From: Aureispira sp. CCB-QB1 | Lineage (GTDB): Bacteria > Bacteroidota > Bacteroidia > Chitinophagales > Saprospiraceae | NCBI RefSeq assembly: GCF_000724545.1 | Contig: NZ_JHBV01000142.1 | Span: forward strand, 1-45,925 | DNA: 45,925 nt | Reading direction: 5' to 3' | Shown: piece by piece, positions 35,907-44,154 of the stretch | How the letters are laid out: each line of letters opens with the position of its first letter | Position numbering within the stretch: position 1 is the stretch's first letter | The notes under the pieces: generated by a model | What the model was told of the DNA's origin: nothing | What the model saw: only the letters and a program-made list of their open reading frames with translations | The model's database searches: none | Program-made: the position numbers and the translations under genes

Positions 35907-37601
35907 TCAAAACTTCATTTGTTCCGTCCATTGCAACTCTTTGGGCAAGTGCTTTGAGCTAAATTCTAAATGTAAGACTCGACGTCGTTTGGGAGCCGAA
36001 GCTATTGAAAAACGCGTCAACAACAAAGCACTTGTTACCAAGGCTGTTCCACTATACAAATCTAAGGTATAAGGGTTGCTGTTGTTGCTCAACAAATCAA
36101 TCTCTTCTTTTGTGAACCGTTTCTTATGAGAACCTGCCAAAACCAGTTGCTGTGCATTGTCTTCCTTAACATCATCCAAATGAATCCGCACACAAAACAC
36201 ACGACCAACCCAATCATCAGAAATGGTCTTTGAGACATCAATGGACTTTGACAAAGTATCAATACTTAAATTGTTCATTTGATGCCACGCTTGATGCGGT
36301 AATTGGTTAGGTGCTTTGCTAAAGAAAGTGGCTTTTACCAAGAAAGCATTGGGGTCTATGTGCTTGATTAACCGAGTTAGATTTCGATTCATAATCACCT
36401 TAATTAAAGTGGGGTGCTCTAGAAGCAATTGCCGAAAAACGCCGCTTCCATTTTTTAAATCTTCTCCTATTTTTTTATGCAGTAAACTCCCCAATTGCTT
36501 AATTTCTCGTTGGCTATACAAATGATTTAAAACAGCGTATCCTTTGTGTTTTAATTTTTGCCCTGCTGCTCGCAAACCACGCTCTGTAATTTCTGTATTA
36601 TACAGATCAATATTGGCATTGATGCGCTCTTTTATTTTTCGTCGCAACTTTTCGGGAGCTAAAACTTTTACACCTTCTCCAAAACCTAGAATAGCTTTTT
36701 CTAGTTCAAAATTATGCTGCACTTGTAATGCAATCGTAATTCCATAGTGGTCTTTTTCTATCAATTCTTGAGAATGATGCAAGGGCTTTGTCAACACATA
36801 AGGAGCATGCTGATAATTAACATACAAAAGCACTTCCTCTACTTTGGCCGTCGGGCTAACAGAAACCCCAATTGCATTTTTAAAATAAATTTCTGCATCA
36901 AACCCTTCTTCCTCCTTAAACCACAATTCACTTGGTTCAATCCCCTCTATTCTATCCAAAGCCAAATTCATAATTCCTACTGTTCCTTCTCTAACACCGA
37001 TCAAAAACCAACGATTTCTAAACTCTTTTAGCAAATAAGGATGGAACTCAAACCGATTTGCTTTTCTAGCTTTAAACGATTGATACGTTATTTTGAGCAC
37101 TTGTTTTTTGATAATAGCTTGATACAAGGTATCCAAATACTCCAAACCTTTTAGGTTGTCATTTTTTTCAAAATCAATAACAGGTTTGGTCGCTGTTTTT
37201 TGAGAATAGATGTGGTCTTCTAGCTTCTGAACCATACCATCCAACTCTTTAAAATGAGAGAACCCTTTGAATTGCTTCATAAATGCCACGGCATCTGTCA
37301 GCATACTTAAATCTTGATCTGTTAACGGAATGTTGGTGATACTATAAGTGGGTTCTTCATAGGTGTAATAACGCTTATCAACAACAATAATAGGAGCATT
37401 ATACCCTAGTTTGTCGCTGCGCATTATTTGAATATCTCCTTGAACAGTTCTCTTACTAACCCCTTTGTCAATTCCTTCGTATTCGTACAAAGCATCCGAG
37501 CAAGCCTCTATCAAATCATCCAATGTCCACTTTCTATAGCGATTTTGGAGGCATTTATCAATTGTTTTATAACGAATAAGCGCATTTCTGTTAACTGGCA
37601 T
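35907..37601 (-). CDS. WYL-domain regulator fused to a degenerate PhyH-type dioxygenase domain
   Basis: 564 aa. Residues 1-75 form a DeoR/winged-HTH-like DNA-binding part (LIEACSDALYEYEGIDKGVSKRTVQGDI). Residues 150-225 are the WYL domain (KITYQSFKARKANRFEFHPY, RWFLIGVREG), followed by a WYL C-terminal extension to about 335. Residues 345-555 resemble phytanoyl-CoA dioxygenases: HKGYAVLNHLYSQREI, AWHQMNN, VRIHLDDVKEDNAQQLVLAGSHK and RRRVLHLEFSS. The Fe ligands are lost: HxD reads H440-Q-M442, and the distal His is T529. This half is therefore probably a ligand-sensing pseudoenzyme. The gene is divergent from the ankyrin/RNA operon and is its likely regulator. Confidence 0.85.
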   Translation of the reverse strand: MPVNRNALIRYKTIDKCLQNRYRKWTLDDLIEACSDALYEYEGIDKGVSKRTVQGDIQIMRSDKLGYNAPIIVVDKRYYTYEEPTYSITNIPLTDQDLSMLTDAVAFMKQFKGFSHFKELDGMVQKLEDHIYSQKTATKPVIDFEKNDNLKGLEYLDTLYQAIIKKQVLKITYQSFKARKANRFEFHPYLLKEFRNRWFLIGVREGTVGIMNLALDRIEGIEPSELWFKEEEGFDAEIYFKNAIGVSVSPTAKVEEVLLYVNYQHAPYVLTKPLHHSQELIEKDHYGITIALQVQHNFELEKAILGFGEGVKVLAPEKLRRKIKERINANIDLYNTEITERGLRAAGQKLKHKGYAVLNHLYSQREIKQLGSLLHKKIGEDLKNGSGVFRQLLLEHPTLIKVIMNRNLTRLIKHIDPNAFLVKATFFSKAPNQLPHQAWHQMNNLSIDTLSKSIDVSKTISDDWVGRVFCVRIHLDDVKEDNAQQLVLAGSHKKRFTKEEIDLLSNNSNPYTLDLYSGTALVTSALLLTRFSIASAPKRRRVLHLEFSSKHLPKELQWTEQMKF

Positions 37602-38036: not shown

Positions 38037-38552
38037 ATGGCTTCTAACCTGACATCTTATAATTTGGTCATCCATGCATTGAGGCAAGGTTCAACAATTG
38101 ATTGGATCAAGTTAGCCAAAAAAATCCATGACTTTCCAAATGGTTGCGATGCATTCATTGGTCGAAGATGGATTACCAATGCTATTGATTGTGGTTCTTT
38201 CCAATCGATTGTTTGGATGCTTTCTCAAGAAGTTGATTTGAATTTTGTAGACGAAGAAGGGTACTCTGTTTTACATTCTTGCATCGACAGATATTTGCCG
38301 AGCAAATACACTATCATGCAATTATTAATTGACTACAACGCTCCTATTGACATTGGAACAAAAGAACATCAACTGGCTGTGAATGGTTGGTCTCCCTTGC
38401 ATATGGCAGTAGCTAGAAAAGATATACAAGCAGTTCGATTACTGTTAAAAAACGGAGCCAATACAACGTTAAGAACTTGCATAGATAACTATGCAACTGC
38501 TAGAGAAGAAGCTCGATACTATGGGTATTTAGACATAGCAGCATTACTATAA
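38037..38552 (+). CDS. Ankyrin-repeat protein
   Basis: A 171-aa protein. The C-terminal 100 residues hold ankyrin repeats (EGYSVLHSCIDRY...IMQLLIDYNAPID; NGWSPLHMAVARKDIQAVRLLLKNGANTTL; ARYYGYLDIAALL). The N-terminal 60 residues (VIHALRQGSTIDWIKLAKKI) look like degenerate repeats. No signal peptide; presumably a cytosolic protein-binding adaptor. It is the first gene behind the shared promoter and is followed at once by a small inverted repeat and a tRNA-like gene. Confidence 0.85.
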   Translation: MASNLTSYNLVIHALRQGSTIDWIKLAKKIHDFPNGCDAFIGRRWITNAIDCGSFQSIVWMLSQEVDLNFVDEEGYSVLHSCIDRYLPSKYTIMQLLIDYNAPIDIGTKEHQLAVNGWSPLHMAVARKDIQAVRLLLKNGANTTLRTCIDNYATAREEARYYGYLDIAALL

Positions 38553-38611: not shown

Positions 38612-38683
38612 GGCTGTGTGTCCGACTGATTTAGGTGCTTGGTTGCAACCCAAGATAAGAAGGTTTGATTCCTTCCACAGCCT
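38612..38683 (+). tRNA. tRNA-Cys(GCA)-like gene inside the operon
   Basis: The acceptor arms GGCTGTG (38612-38618) and CACAGCC (38676-38682) pair over all 7 bp, with discriminator T (38683), the normal base for tRNA-Cys. The anticodon arm is CTTGG/CCAAG around TTGCAAC, anticodon GCA. The T-stem is GAAGG/CCTTC with loop TTTGATT. The D-stem is weak, as in many tRNA-Cys. Two normally invariant positions differ: G19 reads A and C56 reads T, which together keep a Watson-Crick 19-56 pair. CCA is not encoded. It may be a working second tRNA-Cys or a tRNA mimic/decoy in the RNA-repair operon. Confidence 0.75.
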
Positions 38684-38713
38684 CTATTTTAATACCATTA
38701 AACACTAGTTACC

Positions 38714-40882
38714 ATGAAAACAATCGCATTAAATAGATTGAATATTTTAGGAATTGCAAAGGGAAATGGTCTTAGCCAAGCGCATCAACTTACCTTTTTG
38801 GCAGAGTTGGCTCAATTAGGTTATCGTATTACCAACCCAGAGATACTACAAGAAGTTTCTAGTACTTTTTTAATGGATTACAAACACTTGATGAGCACCT
38901 TGACCAAAAAACGAGGTGGCGATGTGACGTATGTCCCTTTGTTTAAAAAATTTCCAGAGCAAGTTCCCAACGATGCTGTGTATTTTAGTAAACGAATCAT
39001 TGGCTATATTGGAAATATCCTTGACCTCTTTCCCGATACTGTGGCATTAGAAAATGGTATTAAAGTACCTAAATGGCTATTTAATCTCAAAGAGTTTGGC
39101 GCAGACCCTATCTCTCAAATGCAATCTAAAGAGTTGTTTGATTTAGCGGCTGCTGAAAATATTTCTAAGAATGGTGATGCCCATGTCGAATGGATTAATT
39201 TGCGTATTGTACACGATGAAGATTTGGCGGATGAACTGAAGGCTTACTTGGCTCGTTTGGTTTATTCTAAATCTTCGATCAAAGAAGCTTTGCACGAGGA
39301 TCTATACGAATTGCTAGATTTTTTTGGTGCCAATGACTTAGATAGTGATTTAATCGTTTTTAAAGAAACGAAAGCTTTGCTGATGCAATATTTTTGGAAA
39401 AAAGAGGAGTACCAAGCGGTCGCTCAATTGGCAAAAACAGCAACAGATGTCTTGCGTTTATTCGCAGCTCTTACTGGTTCTGATGTTAGTCTAAATCAAA
39501 AAATCAAGTTTCCTAAATTACCAAGAAAAGCTCGAAAAGTTGTTTTGGCTATTTTAGAAAAATCATCTGGCTTAGCAGAGGACTTGAATAAATACAAAGG
39601 ACTTTGGCTAGAAATTGGACGCTATTTGCACCCTTTTGAATACAGCAAGCAATACCCACGTACGGCTGAGGTCTTTGATGCTTTGCGCAATGGAAAAATT
39701 GAAACCTACCATTCTAAAACAGAGCAATTATTAGCCTTGGCAGAAGTAGATGCATTGTTAAAACATTTGGAAAACAAACCAGGTGTCTATGCCCGAAAAT
39801 TGCACGAGGTACTTCGACGTTTTCCTAAAGAGTTGGATAAAATTTTGGCTTCTTTTGAAAAAAATATCGCCAAGGTAGCTTTGAAAAACTTATTGGTAAT
39901 GCAAGCCTATTTTTCAGAAATTAATGAGGCTGCCTATCGCACGGTTGTTAACAAAAAAGGAAAGATGAAGGTTCTAACTAACAATGCTTTTGCTGCCCTT
40001 TCGGAGCTTCAGATTGATAAAGTTATGCTTTGCATTCAAAAAGCAATTAAAACTGCCTTGACTGACAAAGAACCTTGGAACGAAGAAACTGTCTGGATTG
40101 ATCCTGAATTAATGAATTATACGATTCCGTTGCAACAACGAAAAAGTTCAGATGGCATCTTAACCGTTGGTAAAGGAAGTCGTATTAAAACAGATTTTTC
40201 TAAAGTATTGCGCTTGTTTATTTATTGGAAACAAACCGCTGTGCGAACCGATTTAGATTTGTCTTGTATCCAATTTGATGAATACTTCAACTATTTAGGG
40301 CATGTGTCTTATACCCAACTTTTTAGCAATGGTATTGTACATTCTGGTGATGTTCAGTCAGCACCATACGGGGCTGCAGAATTTATAGACATTACGATGT
40401 CTAAATTAAAAAAGAAGGTACGTTACTTAGCGGTTCAAGTGCACAAATATTCAGGAGAACACTTCCGAGATATGGATTGCCACGCAGGTTGGATGTTGAG
40501 AGACAAGGCAACTTCTGATATAAAAACTTTTGATATAAAAACAGTTGCCAACAAATTTGACTTGAATGGTGTCGGAGGATATGCCGTACCCTTAATGGTC
40601 GATATTGCAGCTCAAGAAATCATTTCAACAGATTTGTATGTTTCTAGCGTTCAATTTCATAATAATGTAGAAGGGTCTGTCAATGATGTGGCTCTTTTGT
40701 GTGCACAATTGGCAAACTTTACCAAAACACGACCAGTTATTGGCACGTTAGCACAGGCACATGCTGCTGCTCGAAATGCGCAATTGACAACCTACAAGGA
40801 AAATGCTAGCATTACGTTTGGTGTAAAAGACTGTACGTATAACGCAACGGATGTAGAACAGATTTTAACAGAATTGATTTAA
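38714..40882 (+). CDS. Helical-repeat protein with C-terminal TerD-like domain
   Basis: A 722-aa soluble protein. The N-terminal 450 residues are almost entirely alpha-helical, with stretches such as ATDVLRLFAALTGSDVSLNQ, LPRKARKVVLAILE, EIGRYLHPFEY and RKLHEVLRRFP. From memory these recall the uncharacterised bacterial MXAN_6230/SCO0854-type proteins, here without a RING part. Residues about 505-620 are TerD-like: TDLDLSCIQFD, SYTQLFSNGIVHSGDV and GAAEFIDITMSKL, with the acidic Ca-binding positions seen in TerD. I see neither a TROVE nor a vWA (Ro60) signature. It lies between a tRNA-like gene and an array of Y-RNA-like RNAs, so it is the best candidate for the RNA-binding partner. Confidence 0.7.
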   Translation: MKTIALNRLNILGIAKGNGLSQAHQLTFLAELAQLGYRITNPEILQEVSSTFLMDYKHLMSTLTKKRGGDVTYVPLFKKFPEQVPNDAVYFSKRIIGYIGNILDLFPDTVALENGIKVPKWLFNLKEFGADPISQMQSKELFDLAAAENISKNGDAHVEWINLRIVHDEDLADELKAYLARLVYSKSSIKEALHEDLYELLDFFGANDLDSDLIVFKETKALLMQYFWKKEEYQAVAQLAKTATDVLRLFAALTGSDVSLNQKIKFPKLPRKARKVVLAILEKSSGLAEDLNKYKGLWLEIGRYLHPFEYSKQYPRTAEVFDALRNGKIETYHSKTEQLLALAEVDALLKHLENKPGVYARKLHEVLRRFPKELDKILASFEKNIAKVALKNLLVMQAYFSEINEAAYRTVVNKKGKMKVLTNNAFAALSELQIDKVMLCIQKAIKTALTDKEPWNEETVWIDPELMNYTIPLQQRKSSDGILTVGKGSRIKTDFSKVLRLFIYWKQTAVRTDLDLSCIQFDEYFNYLGHVSYTQLFSNGIVHSGDVQSAPYGAAEFIDITMSKLKKKVRYLAVQVHKYSGEHFRDMDCHAGWMLRDKATSDIKTFDIKTVANKFDLNGVGGYAVPLMVDIAAQEIISTDLYVSSVQFHNNVEGSVNDVALLCAQLANFTKTRPVIGTLAQAHAAARNAQLTTYKENASITFGVKDCTYNATDVEQILTELI

Positions 40883-40982: not shown

Positions 40983-41068
40983 TTATCTATGGCATATGAT
41001 AAAGCTTCCTTCTACTACATAGAAATTGTTTTTCTAACAAATAGGTTTATCAATTTTCTACGAGATAG
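40983..41068 (+). ncRNA. Y-RNA-like structured RNA, unit 1
   Basis: First member of a six-unit array. The lower stem (about 40983-40992 with 41058-41068, imperfect) ends in GG, then comes internal loop CATA / ATTTT, the 10-bp upper stem TGATAAAGCT / AGGTTTATCA with one mismatch, then TCCTTCT (41007-41013). The apical part holds a T-arm-shaped hairpin TAGAA-ATTGTTT-TTCTA (41020-41036: 5-bp stem, 7-nt loop) without the canonical TTC loop. Confidence 0.7.
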
Positions 41069-41081
41069 AATCAATTTAAAC

Positions 41082-41151
41082 TAGTGGCTTAAAAATAGCT
41101 TCCTTCTAACACCTTGACTTTTAATCAACATAGCTATTTTAGTTTCCACTA
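41082..41151 (+). ncRNA. Y-RNA-like structured RNA, unit 2
   Basis: Lower stem TAGTGG/CCACTA (6 bp), internal loop CTTA / AGTTT, perfect 9-bp upper stem AAAATAGCT / AGCTATTTT, then TCCTTCT (41101-41107). The apical region has a small hairpin TTGA-CTTTTAA-TCAA (41114-41128; 7-nt loop), a shrunken T-arm equivalent. Confidence 0.8.
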
Positions 41152-41230
41152 ATAATAAAAAAATCCTTAGTGCTTCAAAATAATAGCACAGTAGGAACTA
41201 AAGTTACACCAATACAATTATTATACTAAC

Positions 41231-41309
41231 AAGAGGCTTAGATGTTATTTCCTTCTTTAGGTTCGACTCCTAACTCGTTTTGGTTATACAATAACATCCC
41301 TTCCCTCTT
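41231..41309 (+). ncRNA. Y-RNA-like structured RNA, unit 3 (with true T-arm)
   Basis: Lower stem AAGAGG/CCTCTT, internal loop CTTA / CCTTC, perfect 9-bp upper stem GATGTTATT / AATAACATC, then TCCTTCT (41250-41256). Immediately after comes a canonical tRNA T-arm: TTAGG-TTCGACT-CCTAA (41257-41273) with the TTCRANY loop. No D-arm follows, so this is a partial tRNA mimic. Confidence 0.85.
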
Positions 41310-41320
41310 TTAAAAATTAT

Positions 41321-41381
41321 AACGGACTATAACACACTTCCTTCTACCACTTCCAAACTGACAGTGTGTTTCTTTGCCGTT
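41321..41381 (+). ncRNA. Y-RNA-like structured RNA, unit 4 (smallest)
   Basis: Lower stem AACGG/CCGTT, internal loop ACTA / CTTTG, 9-nt upper stem TAACACACT / AGTGTGTTT (8 pairs plus one T-T mismatch at the base), then TCCTTCT (41339-41345) and a 17-nt apical loop with no obvious arm. T5 after the lower stem could end transcription. Confidence 0.75.
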
Positions 41382-41392
41382 TTTGTTAATAA

Positions 41393-41437
41393 TACTCTGT
41401 TGATTTTTTTATGAAAAAGCAAAAAATCAACAGAGTA
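41393..41437. repeat. Perfect inverted repeat of the AATACTCYGTTG family
   Basis: TACTCTGTTGATTTTTT (41393-41409) and its exact complement (41421-41437) form a 17-bp stem with an 11-nt loop. It separates the four short RNA units from the two long ones, as if inserted into the array. Same terminal sequence as 37733-37872. Confidence 0.8.
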
Positions 41438-41522
41438 ATGTGTTAAGTAACGATAAAAATAGTCTTTCGATTTACAGCAAGATTTTTGAAAACTTATTTT
41501 TTGAACGTTACTAAGAATAGAT

Positions 41523-41673
41523 AGCTTGTGTGTAGGACTAGAGAAAATTTCCTTCTTTGCCTTCCACGCTACAGGTGGTGGTTCGAGTCCACCCTTTGTT
41601 TTCCTTCGGGCAAACAAAGTAGTTCAACTGGTAGAACAGTATATAATTTTTTGGATTACTTATAATACAAGCT
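41523..41673 (+). ncRNA. Y-RNA-like RNA, unit 5, with circularly permuted tRNA domain
   Basis: Outer stem AGCTTGT/ACAAGCT, then TGTAGG/CTTATA with wobbles, internal loop ACTA / GATTA, upper stem GAGAAAATT / AATTTTTTG (8 pairs), TCCTTCT (41550-41556). The apical module is a permuted tRNA: T-arm GGTGG-TTCGAGT-CCACC (41577-41593); acceptor strands CTTTGTT (41594-41600) and AACAAAG (41613-41619) joined by a 12-nt loop; T8/A9; D-arm GTTC-AACTGGTA-GAAC (41622-41637) with GG. The layout matches bacterial Y RNAs such as YrlA. Confidence 0.85.
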
Positions 41674-41715
41674 TATTTTTTTATAGAAACACAGCCAAGG
41701 TGTTGTGCAAAAAAT

Positions 41716-41838
41716 AATGGACTAAAAGTTATTTCCTTCTAAAAATCACGGATCTGGAGGTCAAAGGTTCAAATCCTTTCTCATTGAGTAGCTCAGTTGG
41801 TAGAGCACCAGATTAAAATAATAACTTTAATTACCATT
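41716..41838 (+). ncRNA. Y-RNA-like RNA, unit 6, with complete permuted tRNA core
   Basis: Lower stem AATGG/CCATT, internal loop ACTA / AATTA, perfect 9-bp upper stem AAAGTTATT / AATAACTTT, TCCTTCT (41734-41740). The module contains every tRNA arm in permuted order: 3' anticodon strand ATCTGG (41752-41757), 5-nt variable loop AGGTC, T-arm AAAGG-TTCAAAT-CCTTT (41763-41779), a 3-bp mini-acceptor CTC-ATT-GAG, T8/A9, D-arm GCTC-AGTTGGTA-GAGC (41791-41806), A26, and 5' anticodon strand CCAGAT (41808-41813). A T7 run follows the lower stem. Confidence 0.88.
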
Positions 41839-42015
41839 TTTTTATCAAAAGGTAGGGAGGTTCTTTTGCCAAGCGGTTGAATAGATAGAAACACCACACA
41901 GGTAAATAAATTAAAAATATCTTGTATTAGATTTTTCAACAAAAATGCGAACTAGTAGTAATCCATTTTGCCTGTTTTTATTTATAACAATCCATTCTTT
42001 CCTTACATTTTAGCT

Positions 42016-42783
42016 ATGAAATCTATCTATTCCATACTTTTTTATTTAAGTATCTCCAATTTTATCTACGCTCAATCAGCCAATAGTTCTTTGGAATTCA
42101 TGAAATATGCGCCCAAAGATATGTTTTCTGCTGATTTTAATCCTTCTAGCCTATCTGACCAATTTTTGGAGCCCAAAAGCAATGTTTTTGGGAATGGTTT
42201 CTTTGTAGATGGTATTATTAGTGCTGGAGCAGCTATCAGTGCTTATAATTACCATACCAATCTACCAGAGCCCAATGCTTATATTGTTAGTTCTACAGAT
42301 ATTGTTACTGAAAACTCATTTAGACTAGGCAATAAATGGTATTTTAAAAATAATAAGAAAATCCAATCTGGCATTCAAATTATTTGGGCTAGAATAGGTT
42401 CACTTATTCCCCTTGGAACAAACAATCAAAGCTCTTTTTTCCCGATTACTTATAAAATGAATCCACTCAACATTGGTTCTACTAACTTTATACAGTTATC
42501 CGAAAAAAATGGTCTTGAGTTAAACTTGAATGCAGGACTAACCACTAGTTTTGCCCAGCGCCTAGGCAATAACCTTAATTCTAATTCGGCTGCTTTGGTA
42601 CAGTTTGGTCTCTCTGTAAATCCATCCGTTAAATTCAGACTAAAACGTTTTTCCATAGGTCTTGATATTCAATACATACATATGTTTCCAGGTTCAATCT
42701 ATTCAAGCGATGGCACTCAATCGACCTATAATTATGATGTTAATATATTACTATTTGGAGCAACAATAGGGTGTAAGTTCTAA
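42016..42783 (+). CDS. Predicted outer-membrane beta-barrel protein
   Basis: 255 aa with a signal peptide (SIYSILFYLSISNFIYAQ). The rest alternates polar and hydrophobic residues and ends on aromatic/charged strands (FGATIGCKF), as in small porin-like barrels of Bacteroidota. No named family. The start at 42016 puts the signal at the N-terminus. It lies between the RNA array and rtcB but has its own terminator; whether it belongs to the system is unclear. Confidence 0.7.
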   Translation: MKSIYSILFYLSISNFIYAQSANSSLEFMKYAPKDMFSADFNPSSLSDQFLEPKSNVFGNGFFVDGIISAGAAISAYNYHTNLPEPNAYIVSSTDIVTENSFRLGNKWYFKNNKKIQSGIQIIWARIGSLIPLGTNNQSSFFPITYKMNPLNIGSTNFIQLSEKNGLELNLNAGLTTSFAQRLGNNLNSNSAALVQFGLSVNPSVKFRLKRFSIGLDIQYIHMFPGSIYSSDGTQSTYNYDVNILLFGATIGCKF

Positions 42784-42993: not shown

Positions 42994-44154
42994 ATGAAAA
43001 AAGTAATTTCAACAGAGAAAAAGCCTATTAAATTATGGTTGACAGATTTAGAAGATGGCGCATTGGAACAAGCTAAAAATTTGGCAAACCTACCATTCAC
43101 ATTTAAACACATTCCTATTATGCCAGATAGTCATCAAGGTTATGGCATGCCTATCGGCTCTATTTTGGCAACCAAAGGAGTTGTCATACCTAATGCTGTG
43201 GGGGTTGATATTGGCTGTGGAATGTGTGCCATGCGTACAAGTTTAACGCACGTTTCTAAAGAAAGCTTAAAAAAGACATTAACTATTGCCCGCACATTGA
43301 TTCCTCTAGGTTTCAACTGGCATGCTGAACCTCAAGATGAAACATTAATGCCACAAGGATATGAAGATTTGCAAATTGTCTCTCGTGCATACCCCAAAGG
43401 GACTAAGCAAATTGGCACACTAGGTGGTGGCAATCATTTCATTGAAATCCAACAAGGTTCTGATGGTTATATTTGGATAATGATCCACTCTGGTAGCCGT
43501 GCTTTAGGGCATACCGTTGCACAACATTACAACAATTTAGCAATTCAAATGAATGAGCGTTACCACTCTGTGGTCACCAAAAAAATGGAGCTAGCATTTT
43601 TGCCTATTGAGACACAAGAAGCAAAGGATTATATCGCTGAAATGAATTACTGTATTGCTTATGCTTTGGCGAATCGAAAATTGATGATGACACGAATGGT
43701 TGAAGCACTTACAGAAGTTATAGGGACATTTGATTGTGATGAAATTATTAATAAATCACACAACTTTGCTGCTTGGGAAAAGCATTACGGAGAAAATGTT
43801 TTGGTTCATCGAAAAGGAGCTACACGTGCCTTCAAAGACGAATTAGGAATGATTCCAGGATCACAAGGGACTAGCTCTTATATTGTCAAAGGTCTTGGCA
43901 ACCCTGAATCTTTTATGTCTTGTTCGCATGGAGCAGGGCGAAAACTAGGAAGAAAACAGGCGCAACGTGAACTAAATTTAGCACATGAAATTGAATTATT
44001 AAACCAAAAAGGCGTCATTCATGCCATTCGACATACCTCGGATTTGGATGAGGCAACGGGGGCTTATAAGGATATTGATATCGTCATGGAGAATCAAAAA
44101 GATTTGGCTGAAATTATGGTTCAATTAACTCCTTTGGCCGTTCTTAAAGGATAG
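42994..44154 (+). CDS. rtcB: RNA-splicing/repair ligase RtcB
   Basis: A 386-aa GTP- and Mn-dependent RNA ligase that joins 2',3'-cyclic phosphate (3'-phosphate) ends to 5'-OH ends, healing RNAs cut by ribotoxins or RNase stress. Motifs in order: MPDSHQGYGMPIG, GVDIGCGMC (metal ligands Asp72, Cys75), GTLGGGNHFIE (His148), HSGSRALG, NKSHNFAAWE (His256), HRKGATRA, PGSQGTSSYIVKG and SCSHGAGRKLGR, where His312 accepts GMP. It is of the short bacterial type. No rtcA is in the window. The promoter box is shared with the Y-RNA-like operon, so the ligase is probably its catalytic arm. Confidence 0.96.
   Translation: MKKVISTEKKPIKLWLTDLEDGALEQAKNLANLPFTFKHIPIMPDSHQGYGMPIGSILATKGVVIPNAVGVDIGCGMCAMRTSLTHVSKESLKKTLTIARTLIPLGFNWHAEPQDETLMPQGYEDLQIVSRAYPKGTKQIGTLGGGNHFIEIQQGSDGYIWIMIHSGSRALGHTVAQHYNNLAIQMNERYHSVVTKKMELAFLPIETQEAKDYIAEMNYCIAYALANRKLMMTRMVEALTEVIGTFDCDEIINKSHNFAAWEKHYGENVLVHRKGATRAFKDELGMIPGSQGTSSYIVKGLGNPESFMSCSHGAGRKLGRKQAQRELNLAHEIELLNQKGVIHAIRHTSDLDEATGAYKDIDIVMENQKDLAEIMVQLTPLAVLKG

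Follow-up and report, generated by a model that had tools for sequence, protein, structure and literature searches.

A 45,925-nt stretch of Aureispira sp. CCB-QB1 (contig NZ_JHBV01000142.1, forward strand; this whole stretch is called the window below) carries an array of six RNA units on the + strand (40985-41841) next to a gene for a 722-amino-acid (aa) protein, and the question raised by this locus is what these RNAs are and with which protein they act. On the basis of sequence and predicted fold, we consider it probable that the array encodes Y-RNA-like RNAs and that these form, together with the neighbouring 722-aa protein, a ribonucleoprotein of the Ro60 type. The best reading is a second Ro60/Y-RNA-type particle, with a predicted function in tRNA damage or repair. 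It is also likely that this particle represents a second, Ro60-independent class across bacteria and large phages, in which a fusion of a Ro60-like solenoid to TerD has a separate RNA family as its ligand, the tRNA mimics of this family come in either circular permutation, and the cassette can replace Ro60/Y RNA at one locus.

Six units of one architecture with covarying stems

The array consists of the following units:

40985..41065, + strand: RNA unit 1, UCCUUCU at 41007, bare apical module; the weakest unit
41080..41153, + strand: RNA unit 2, UCCUUCU at 41101, bare apical module
41229..41311, + strand: RNA unit 3, UCCUUCU at 41250, apical T-arm only
41318..41384, + strand: RNA unit 4, UCCUUCU at 41339, bare apical module
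41529..41666, + strand: RNA unit 5, UCCUUCU at 41550, permuted tRNA mimic at 41570-41644 (T-arm, 8-bp closed acceptor hairpin, D-arm)
41713..41841, + strand: RNA unit 6, UCCUUCU at 41734, permuted tRNA mimic at 41755-41813 (T-arm, short acceptor hairpin, D-arm)

All six fit one geometry, in which a lower stem ending in GG is followed by a 4-nt left loop (CATA, CTTA, CTTA, ACTA, ACTA and ACTA in units 1-6), an upper stem, UCCUUC(U), an apical module, the second strand of the upper stem, a 5-nt right loop (ATTTT, AGTTT, CCTTC, CTTTG, GATTA and AATTA) and the second strand of the lower stem. A first-pass annotation, made from the letters of the window alone, had already described six + strand units of this architecture, and its left and right loops hold as written. 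The upper stems, which it gave as 9-10 bp, are indeed complementary but measure 8-10 bp, with one non-pair each in units 1, 4 and 5 and one G-U pair in unit 5; in addition, the CC of the pattern reads CT in units 1 and 5. TCCTTCT, called invariant there, is so within the window, but in the family at large the final base is variable, and UUACUUC stands in its place in a diverged clade. Likewise, the modules do span the range that had been proposed, from a bare loop towards a complete tRNA mimic, but because unit 3 has a T-arm alone and the acceptor hairpin of unit 6 has only about 3 bp as read from the sequence, only unit 5 approaches a complete mimic. When folding energies were compared with those of shuffled sequences, units 2 and 4 folded far better (z -3.3 and -3.5), units 3, 5 and 6 gave z values of -1.5 to -2.3, and unit 1 was no better than its shuffles (z -0.42). 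The unconstrained fold of unit 5 differs from the shared architecture.

Covariation of the stems had been taken as evidence for RNA folding, and this was borne out in three sets of units, all well above shuffles. In an alignment of 27 units (four from the window, the others from nine other loci) 87.8% of the cells were paired against a shuffled mean of 60.8, with 139 double-sided changes against 44.6 and a covariation score of 0.748 against 0.213 after shuffling and at most 0.225 when slid. For 43 further units from other genomes, which were not used in our first covariance model (R1) and were hand-picked from its matches with weak ones and near-duplicate contigs left out, 85.6% paired (shuffled 55.4), a count that leans towards pairing because R1 is a structural model and favours paired strands; these units showed 265 double-sided changes (shuffled 94.2) and a covariation score of 0.778 (shuffled 0.182). 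RNAalifold, run unguided, predicts the same two helices from the 43 units. The third set comprises 24 units of the diverged clade and is described below. These results bear out the reading as structured RNAs with real covariation.

The annotation had also pointed to a covariance-model search beyond the window. A second covariance model (R2), built from the 43 units of other genomes and none from the window, recovered five of the six units in the 45,925 bases (E-values, hereafter E, of 4e-14 to 8e-6; unit 6 at 6.7e-8) with no further match up to E = 1, which is more than chance would give. Unit 1 was matched only in part (model 10-63 of 71), and unit 5 was missed by both R1 and R2. At gathering thresholds Rfam has no match to any of the six units, in agreement with the earlier statement that they fit no described family.

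The RNA family follows the 722-aa gene

The units belong to a widespread RNA family that is tied to the neighbouring 722-aa gene, and not to Ro60. Among 198 relatives, R1 matches (E 0.01) occurred in 9 genomes and the protein in 23 (in three of these as a short TerD stretch only); all 9 were within the 23, and 20 of the 21 R1 matches adjoin the gene, so the genomic link that had been drawn from the window to this protein holds in other genomes. Across the phylum, R2 matched only the window genome among 247 genomes; 18 of these have TROVE, the domain of Ro60, and the six genomes that carry a full-length homologue of the 722-aa protein include none of the 18. Homologues with adjoining units come from six bacterial phyla, and 31 of the 33 viral contigs that carry the protein have such units as well. 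In Fulvivirga and in metagenome-assembled genomes (MAGs) of Saprospiraceae, Planctomycetota, Kofleriaceae (Myxococcota) and Chitinophagales the homologue is followed by TCCTTCT units, and units also lie next to the homologues of Vibrio vulnificus, Niallia, Streptomyces halstedii, Xanthomonas phage XacN1 and Rhodococcus phage Weasels2. The units beside the homologue of a Variovorax plasmid were weak with R1 (E 0.012), and both fell below E 3e-6 with R2, which also added an uncultured 485-kb phage (3 units), a faecal phage scaffold (4 units), Lactobacillus phage LpeD, S. anthocyanicus, Kitasatospora and, weakly, Prevotella. At loci L059 and L062 a pattern search gave no UUCCUUC units, and units appeared with UUACUUC.

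Two side observations were made at these loci. In the Planctomycetota MAG an RNase P RNA (L005, 8416-8771; Rfam 292 bits) lies about 90 bases 3' of the two-unit array, and the unit at L004 8565-8653 apparently has a small hairpin inserted between GG and the left loop, with the outer stem still paired.

In these 33 viral contigs, which are from IMG/VR and some of which are near-identical (e.g. L087/L088/L100, L083/L085 and L096/L097), R1 gave 73 matches at E up to 1, all on the gene strand, with up to seven in contig L096 (one of them only at E 0.38). Positions were measured for 59 of the 64 matches listed, namely those in contigs with computed gene ends: 43 lie upstream of the gene, 16 downstream and none inside it, at a median distance of 108 and a maximum of 1,104 bases. 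Such placement on the gene strand, close 5' or 3' of the gene, is also what one would see if the units were cis-acting elements, that is, structured intergenic segments for mRNA processing or operon attenuation and not free RNAs, and the hairpin between window units 4 and 5 would fit that idea as well. We nevertheless regard it as very unlikely, since the position switches between the 5' and the 3' side, a contig can hold anything from one to seven matches, and the tRNA-topology forms described below have acceptor ends of their own.

A predicted Ro60-like solenoid fused to a TerD fold

The 722-aa protein matches NCBIfam NF041916 (MXAN_6230/SCO0854; E 2e-103, 347 bits), which is below the curated cut-off of 600, with a best stretch that covers residues 328-699 only, and it also matches PHROG 33734 (E 2e-62); both are families without an assigned function. 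SCO0854 or MXAN_6230 is named in no paper of a literature search that left most subscription papers outside. Pfam gave no TROVE match for the protein and a weak TerD match in 3 of 10 family members tested. Sequence searches against the PDB returned nothing at E 1 (one chain at E 1.1 with a profile), and PADLOC had no match.

A first structure model from 7 sequences (predicted local distance difference test, pLDDT, 62), in which only TerD matched clearly, was superseded by an AlphaFold2 model from 30 sequences (pLDDT 80.5, predicted template-modelling score 0.74). Foldseek against the PDB placed 9a6r_B first, an SCP2 chain that we take to be a TerD-family stress protein, followed by five TerD or TerD-like chains (3ibz at E 3.8e-5), and by this comparison the C-terminal domain has the TerD fold. 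Next came Rsr of D. radiodurans (2nvo; E 5.7e-3, probability 0.99) and human Ro60 (9nen; probability 0.99), together with the Ro-RNA complex 2i91 (probabilities 0.95 and 0.84) and a radial-spoke chain over 215 columns (probability 1.00), while the remaining chains to rank 50 had probabilities of 0.30 or less. Against viral models, a phage 'TROVE domain-containing protein' ranked 13th (E 4.3e-4, probability 1.00); it was the first functional name other than tellurium/TerD, and the 'cytoplasmic protein' of LpeD is a homologue. The putative partner of the RNAs is not Ro60 by sequence, but a protein with a predicted Ro60-like fold and a TerD domain.

TerD proteins of the Ter system have the same fold as this C-terminal domain; in the 722-aa protein, however, TerD is fused to a predicted helical solenoid and RNA genes are the usual neighbour. 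The C-terminal domain of Ro60, by comparison, is vWA. The protein thus differs from Ro60 both in its C-terminal TerD fold and in having no detectable TROVE sequence.

Comparison with Ro60 loci and known Y RNAs

The conserved Ro60-binding motif of Y RNAs is GGUCCGA / UUNACC. Cores of the window family (GGnnUA or GGUCAA / nnUUnCC) look similar in kind to this motif, and one clade has UACUUC in common with the Ro60 RNAs of Bacteroidota, but R1 gives no match at the loci of the latter. The units resemble the Ro60 (Rsr)/bacterial Y RNA particles associated with RtcB (e.g. rsr-yrlBA-rtcBA) in being small stem-loop RNAs with exchangeable apical modules that include tRNA mimics. Further points of likeness are the adjoining (predicted) solenoid gene, the nearby RtcB RNA ligase, the kind of WYL regulator and, within one genus, the position in the genome. 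One could suppose that these are ordinary Ro60-bound Y RNAs of the YrlA type in a genome whose Ro60 had been overlooked. The YrlA model (RF02553) does touch units 5 and 6 at relaxed thresholds (28.9 bits, E 7e-4, and 32.3 bits, E 7.5e-5), yet these are the only units touched, the gathering score of 69 bits is not reached, and the match is confined to the permuted T-arm/acceptor/D-arm module (model 23-88 of 114); some relatives carry the opposite circular permutation. The window's own 99%-complete genome has no TROVE/Ro60 (PF05731) match, and beside true Ro60 genes R1 found nothing below E 0.069 (25 loci, 18 genomes; lowest E 0.094 in 10 larger TROVE stretches), and the window core GG..UUCCUUCU..UUNCC tracks the TerD-solenoid protein instead. 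An overlooked Ro60 is largely refuted by these results, and we hold it to be most improbable.

True Ro60 genes of Bacteroidota have tandem tRNA-like Y RNAs of their own on the 3' side (L157-L166). Within 1,000 bases of the TROVE gene 4-6 TACTTC motifs were counted in 7 of 10 loci and 0 or 1 in the other three, and at four loci the RNA core reads GUUGUAGA..UACUUCG..GUUACC, which differs from that of the window. A six-unit array, which had been thought unusual, is therefore not exceptional, as the seven matches of viral contig L096 also illustrate. Rfam at gathering had no YrlA match at 18 short (~3 kb) TROVE loci, which may not hold whole arrays. UACUUC is common to the TROVE-locus RNAs and the diverged clade, and this sequence likeness hints at common descent of the two.

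Ro60 tethers to PNPase and associates with RtcB according to passages of one paper (PMC7790460), and a jumbo-phage review (PMC7824862) notes that a few phages, a small subset, have ROT/TROVE proteins together with a tRNA-like partner; it mentions TerD separately. No link between a TerD protein and a Y-like RNA was found in the titles, abstract beginnings and passages by which the literature was judged, a search that did not cover the main surveys of bacterial Y RNAs and RNA repair. The window RNAs can also be likened, by description only, to a tRNA-like RNA that Burroughs and Aravind reportedly linked in 2016 to an SPFH/Band-7 RNA repair system.

tRNA mimics in the opposite circular permutation

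The diverged clade has the core GGUCAA-8 bp-UACUUC..AUUACC. Of the 192 stem positions in 24 units from 12 loci, selected by sequence motifs alone, 182 were paired, whereas 2,000 shuffles averaged 110 and never exceeded 136; this count is free of structural-model bias, with the provisos that only motif-matching units were counted and that several of the 12 loci are close relatives. The same arrays hold RNAs with tRNA topology, in the order acceptor, D-arm, core 3' strand, closing loop, GGUCAA with the 5' strand, UACUUC, T-arm and acceptor. A strict pattern found five of them in five genomes, with 7/7 acceptor, 8/8 core and 5/5 T-stem pairs, the core position being the best-pairing one within each RNA. 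The Rfam tRNA model scored 43-55 bits on ten tRNA-topology RNAs of 115-125 nt in nine genomes (at 4 of 5 loci in one set and at all 5 diverged loci in another), while ARAGORN called none of the four in the first set; one such RNA ends in CUGUCUC-A-CCA. Compared with units 5 and 6 of the window, these forms are circularly permuted: one version ends at the putative protein-binding stem and has a closed acceptor, and the other ends at the acceptor and has the core in place of the anticodon arm.

We also considered whether the RNAs could be tRNA-like decoys or sponges that titrate anticodon nucleases or other tRNA-acting effectors, with the protein only stabilising them. Carriage by phages would suit such a role, as would the tRNA genes and annotated nucleotidyl transferase or tRNA nucleotidyltransferase near two phage homologues (RcXuper and RpAliso) and the T-arm or D-arm modules that some units have. 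However, most units are without a tRNA-like module: a T-arm was present in the apical module of 11 of 106 distinct R1 units (8 of 10,600 shuffles; the one in L098 is probably a chance match, and R1 misses some long units). In addition, the anticodon arm is replaced by the core in the tRNA-topology forms. A decoy role is thus unlikely in our view.

Ro60 and the TerD-solenoid cassette at one locus

The window's WYL regulator has homologues close to TROVE genes as well as to the 722-aa-type protein of Aureispira and of Fulvivirga and to several diverged homologues of that protein. RtcB is likewise found near both kinds of gene, as the first-pass annotation had suggested for the window; the ten larger TROVE stretches have WYL in 6 and RtcB in 8. 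Other RNA-handling genes lie close to further homologues: in Variovorax rtcR is three genes away, in XacN1 RlaP is two open reading frames (ORFs) away, and in Vibrio there is an RNA ligase at a distance of about 3 kb. The nucleotidyltransferase and tRNA genes near the RcXuper and RpAliso homologues belong to this context, too.

In genus g167 one locus has TROVE in three genomes and the TerD-solenoid protein with its RNAs in five; two of the three TROVE genomes were scanned for RNA motifs, and both have TACTTC units. Between stretches L193 and L190, RtcB is 97.9% identical, WYL 94.8%, a ~215-aa protein 82.8% and further flanking genes 92-98%, and WYL and the 215-aa protein are present in all five TerD-solenoid stretches. 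Ro60 and the TerD-solenoid protein with its RNAs thus occupy the same place in g167, beside the same WYL and, where seen, the same RtcB. The ~205-215 aa protein next to WYL (L190 10338-10949, L193 9804-10448) had no PADLOC match.

Weight of the evidence and a possible mechanism

Several observations weigh against a Ro60-type particle formed by the units and the 722-aa protein. On the protein side, template-modelling scores are low (0.21/0.28 to Rsr, 0.2-0.3 to Ro60 proteins) and a profile-profile comparison with 18 TROVE proteins showed no sequence relation, and because of this the Ro60-like solenoid fold of the model is well suggested, not proven. On the RNA side, the R1 match on G166 contig 7 is not beside the gene and has a damaged motif, and the gene of G166 itself has variant units; R2 does not find the variant RNAs in five genomes of the phylum that have a diverged full-length homologue, reaches only E 0.05-0.07 at the homologues of Mycobacterium phage WXIN and Rhodobacter phage RcXuper, and has no match at those of SCTP-2 and RpAliso. 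R1 and R2 are also absent or weak near the L028, L060 and L063 homologues, and at L060 and L063 a pattern search found neither UUCCUUC nor UUACUUC units. As for the neighbourhood, tblastn found no RtcB or WYL beside the Planctomycetota, Myxococcota, L004 and L055 homologues, and RtcB is within the stretch in only 2 of the 5 TerD-solenoid stretches of g167.

Taking the particle reading as a basis, the solenoid would bind the core (GG/loop/8-10-bp stem/UUCCUUCU), whose near-fixed stem could set the spacing between the two conserved elements. The apical modules may be exchangeable adaptors, each offering a tRNA-like surface to enzymes that handle tRNA; alternatively, they might shield the protein until a damaged RNA takes their place. 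A ligand may be sensed by TerD, RNA damage could lead the WYL regulator to turn the operon on, and RtcB would seal the broken RNA. Such a scheme supplies a function hypothesis and an RNA partner for the widespread family NF041916/PHROG 33734, points to RNA-protein particles as a possible setting for TerD domains, and adds phages to the carriers of Y-RNA-like arrays. As a natural experiment, the locus swap offers close relatives with either Ro60 or the TerD-solenoid cassette among near-identical neighbours, and it could reveal the role of the Ro60 particle in RNA repair. Having both circular permutations of the tRNA mimic helps to tell which parts are important (tRNA elbow, acceptor, protein-binding core), whatever the order in which they stand.

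Gene neighbourhood in the window

The array stands in the order WYL regulator, ankyrin-repeat ORF, tRNA-Cys, 722-aa gene, six RNA units, 271-aa ORF and RtcB:

35907..37601, - strand: WYL-domain regulator, 564 aa (Pfam WYL 5e-14), divergent from the operon
38037-38552: ankyrin-repeat ORF
38612-38684: tRNA-Cys (ARAGORN and Rfam at gathering)
38714..40882, + strand: 722-aa protein gene, predicted Ro60-like helical solenoid with a C-terminal TerD-fold domain
41968-42783: 271-aa ORF without a family, between the array and rtcB
42994..44154, + strand: RtcB RNA ligase, 386 aa (Pfam RtcB 6e-107; 358.9 bits, above the Pfam cut-off)

The tRNA-Cys gene is normal, lies about 30 bases 5' of the 722-aa gene and is the only tRNA called in the window by ARAGORN or by Rfam at gathering; the RNA units were not called as tRNAs. 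Copies of the 722-aa protein with 84% and 75% identity occur in two MAGs labelled Aureispira, and the 271-aa ORF is present, among the loci compared, only at those of the window's own genome. Promoter and terminator scans gave no excess over shuffles. Rfam matches to CopA and several microRNA families at 41361-41456, far below gathering, were rejected, as one AT-rich hairpin is behind all of them. Between units 4 and 5 there is an AT-rich inverted repeat at 41391-41439 (ACTCTGTTGATTTTTT..AAAAAATCAACAGAGT), a possible terminator or processing hairpin.
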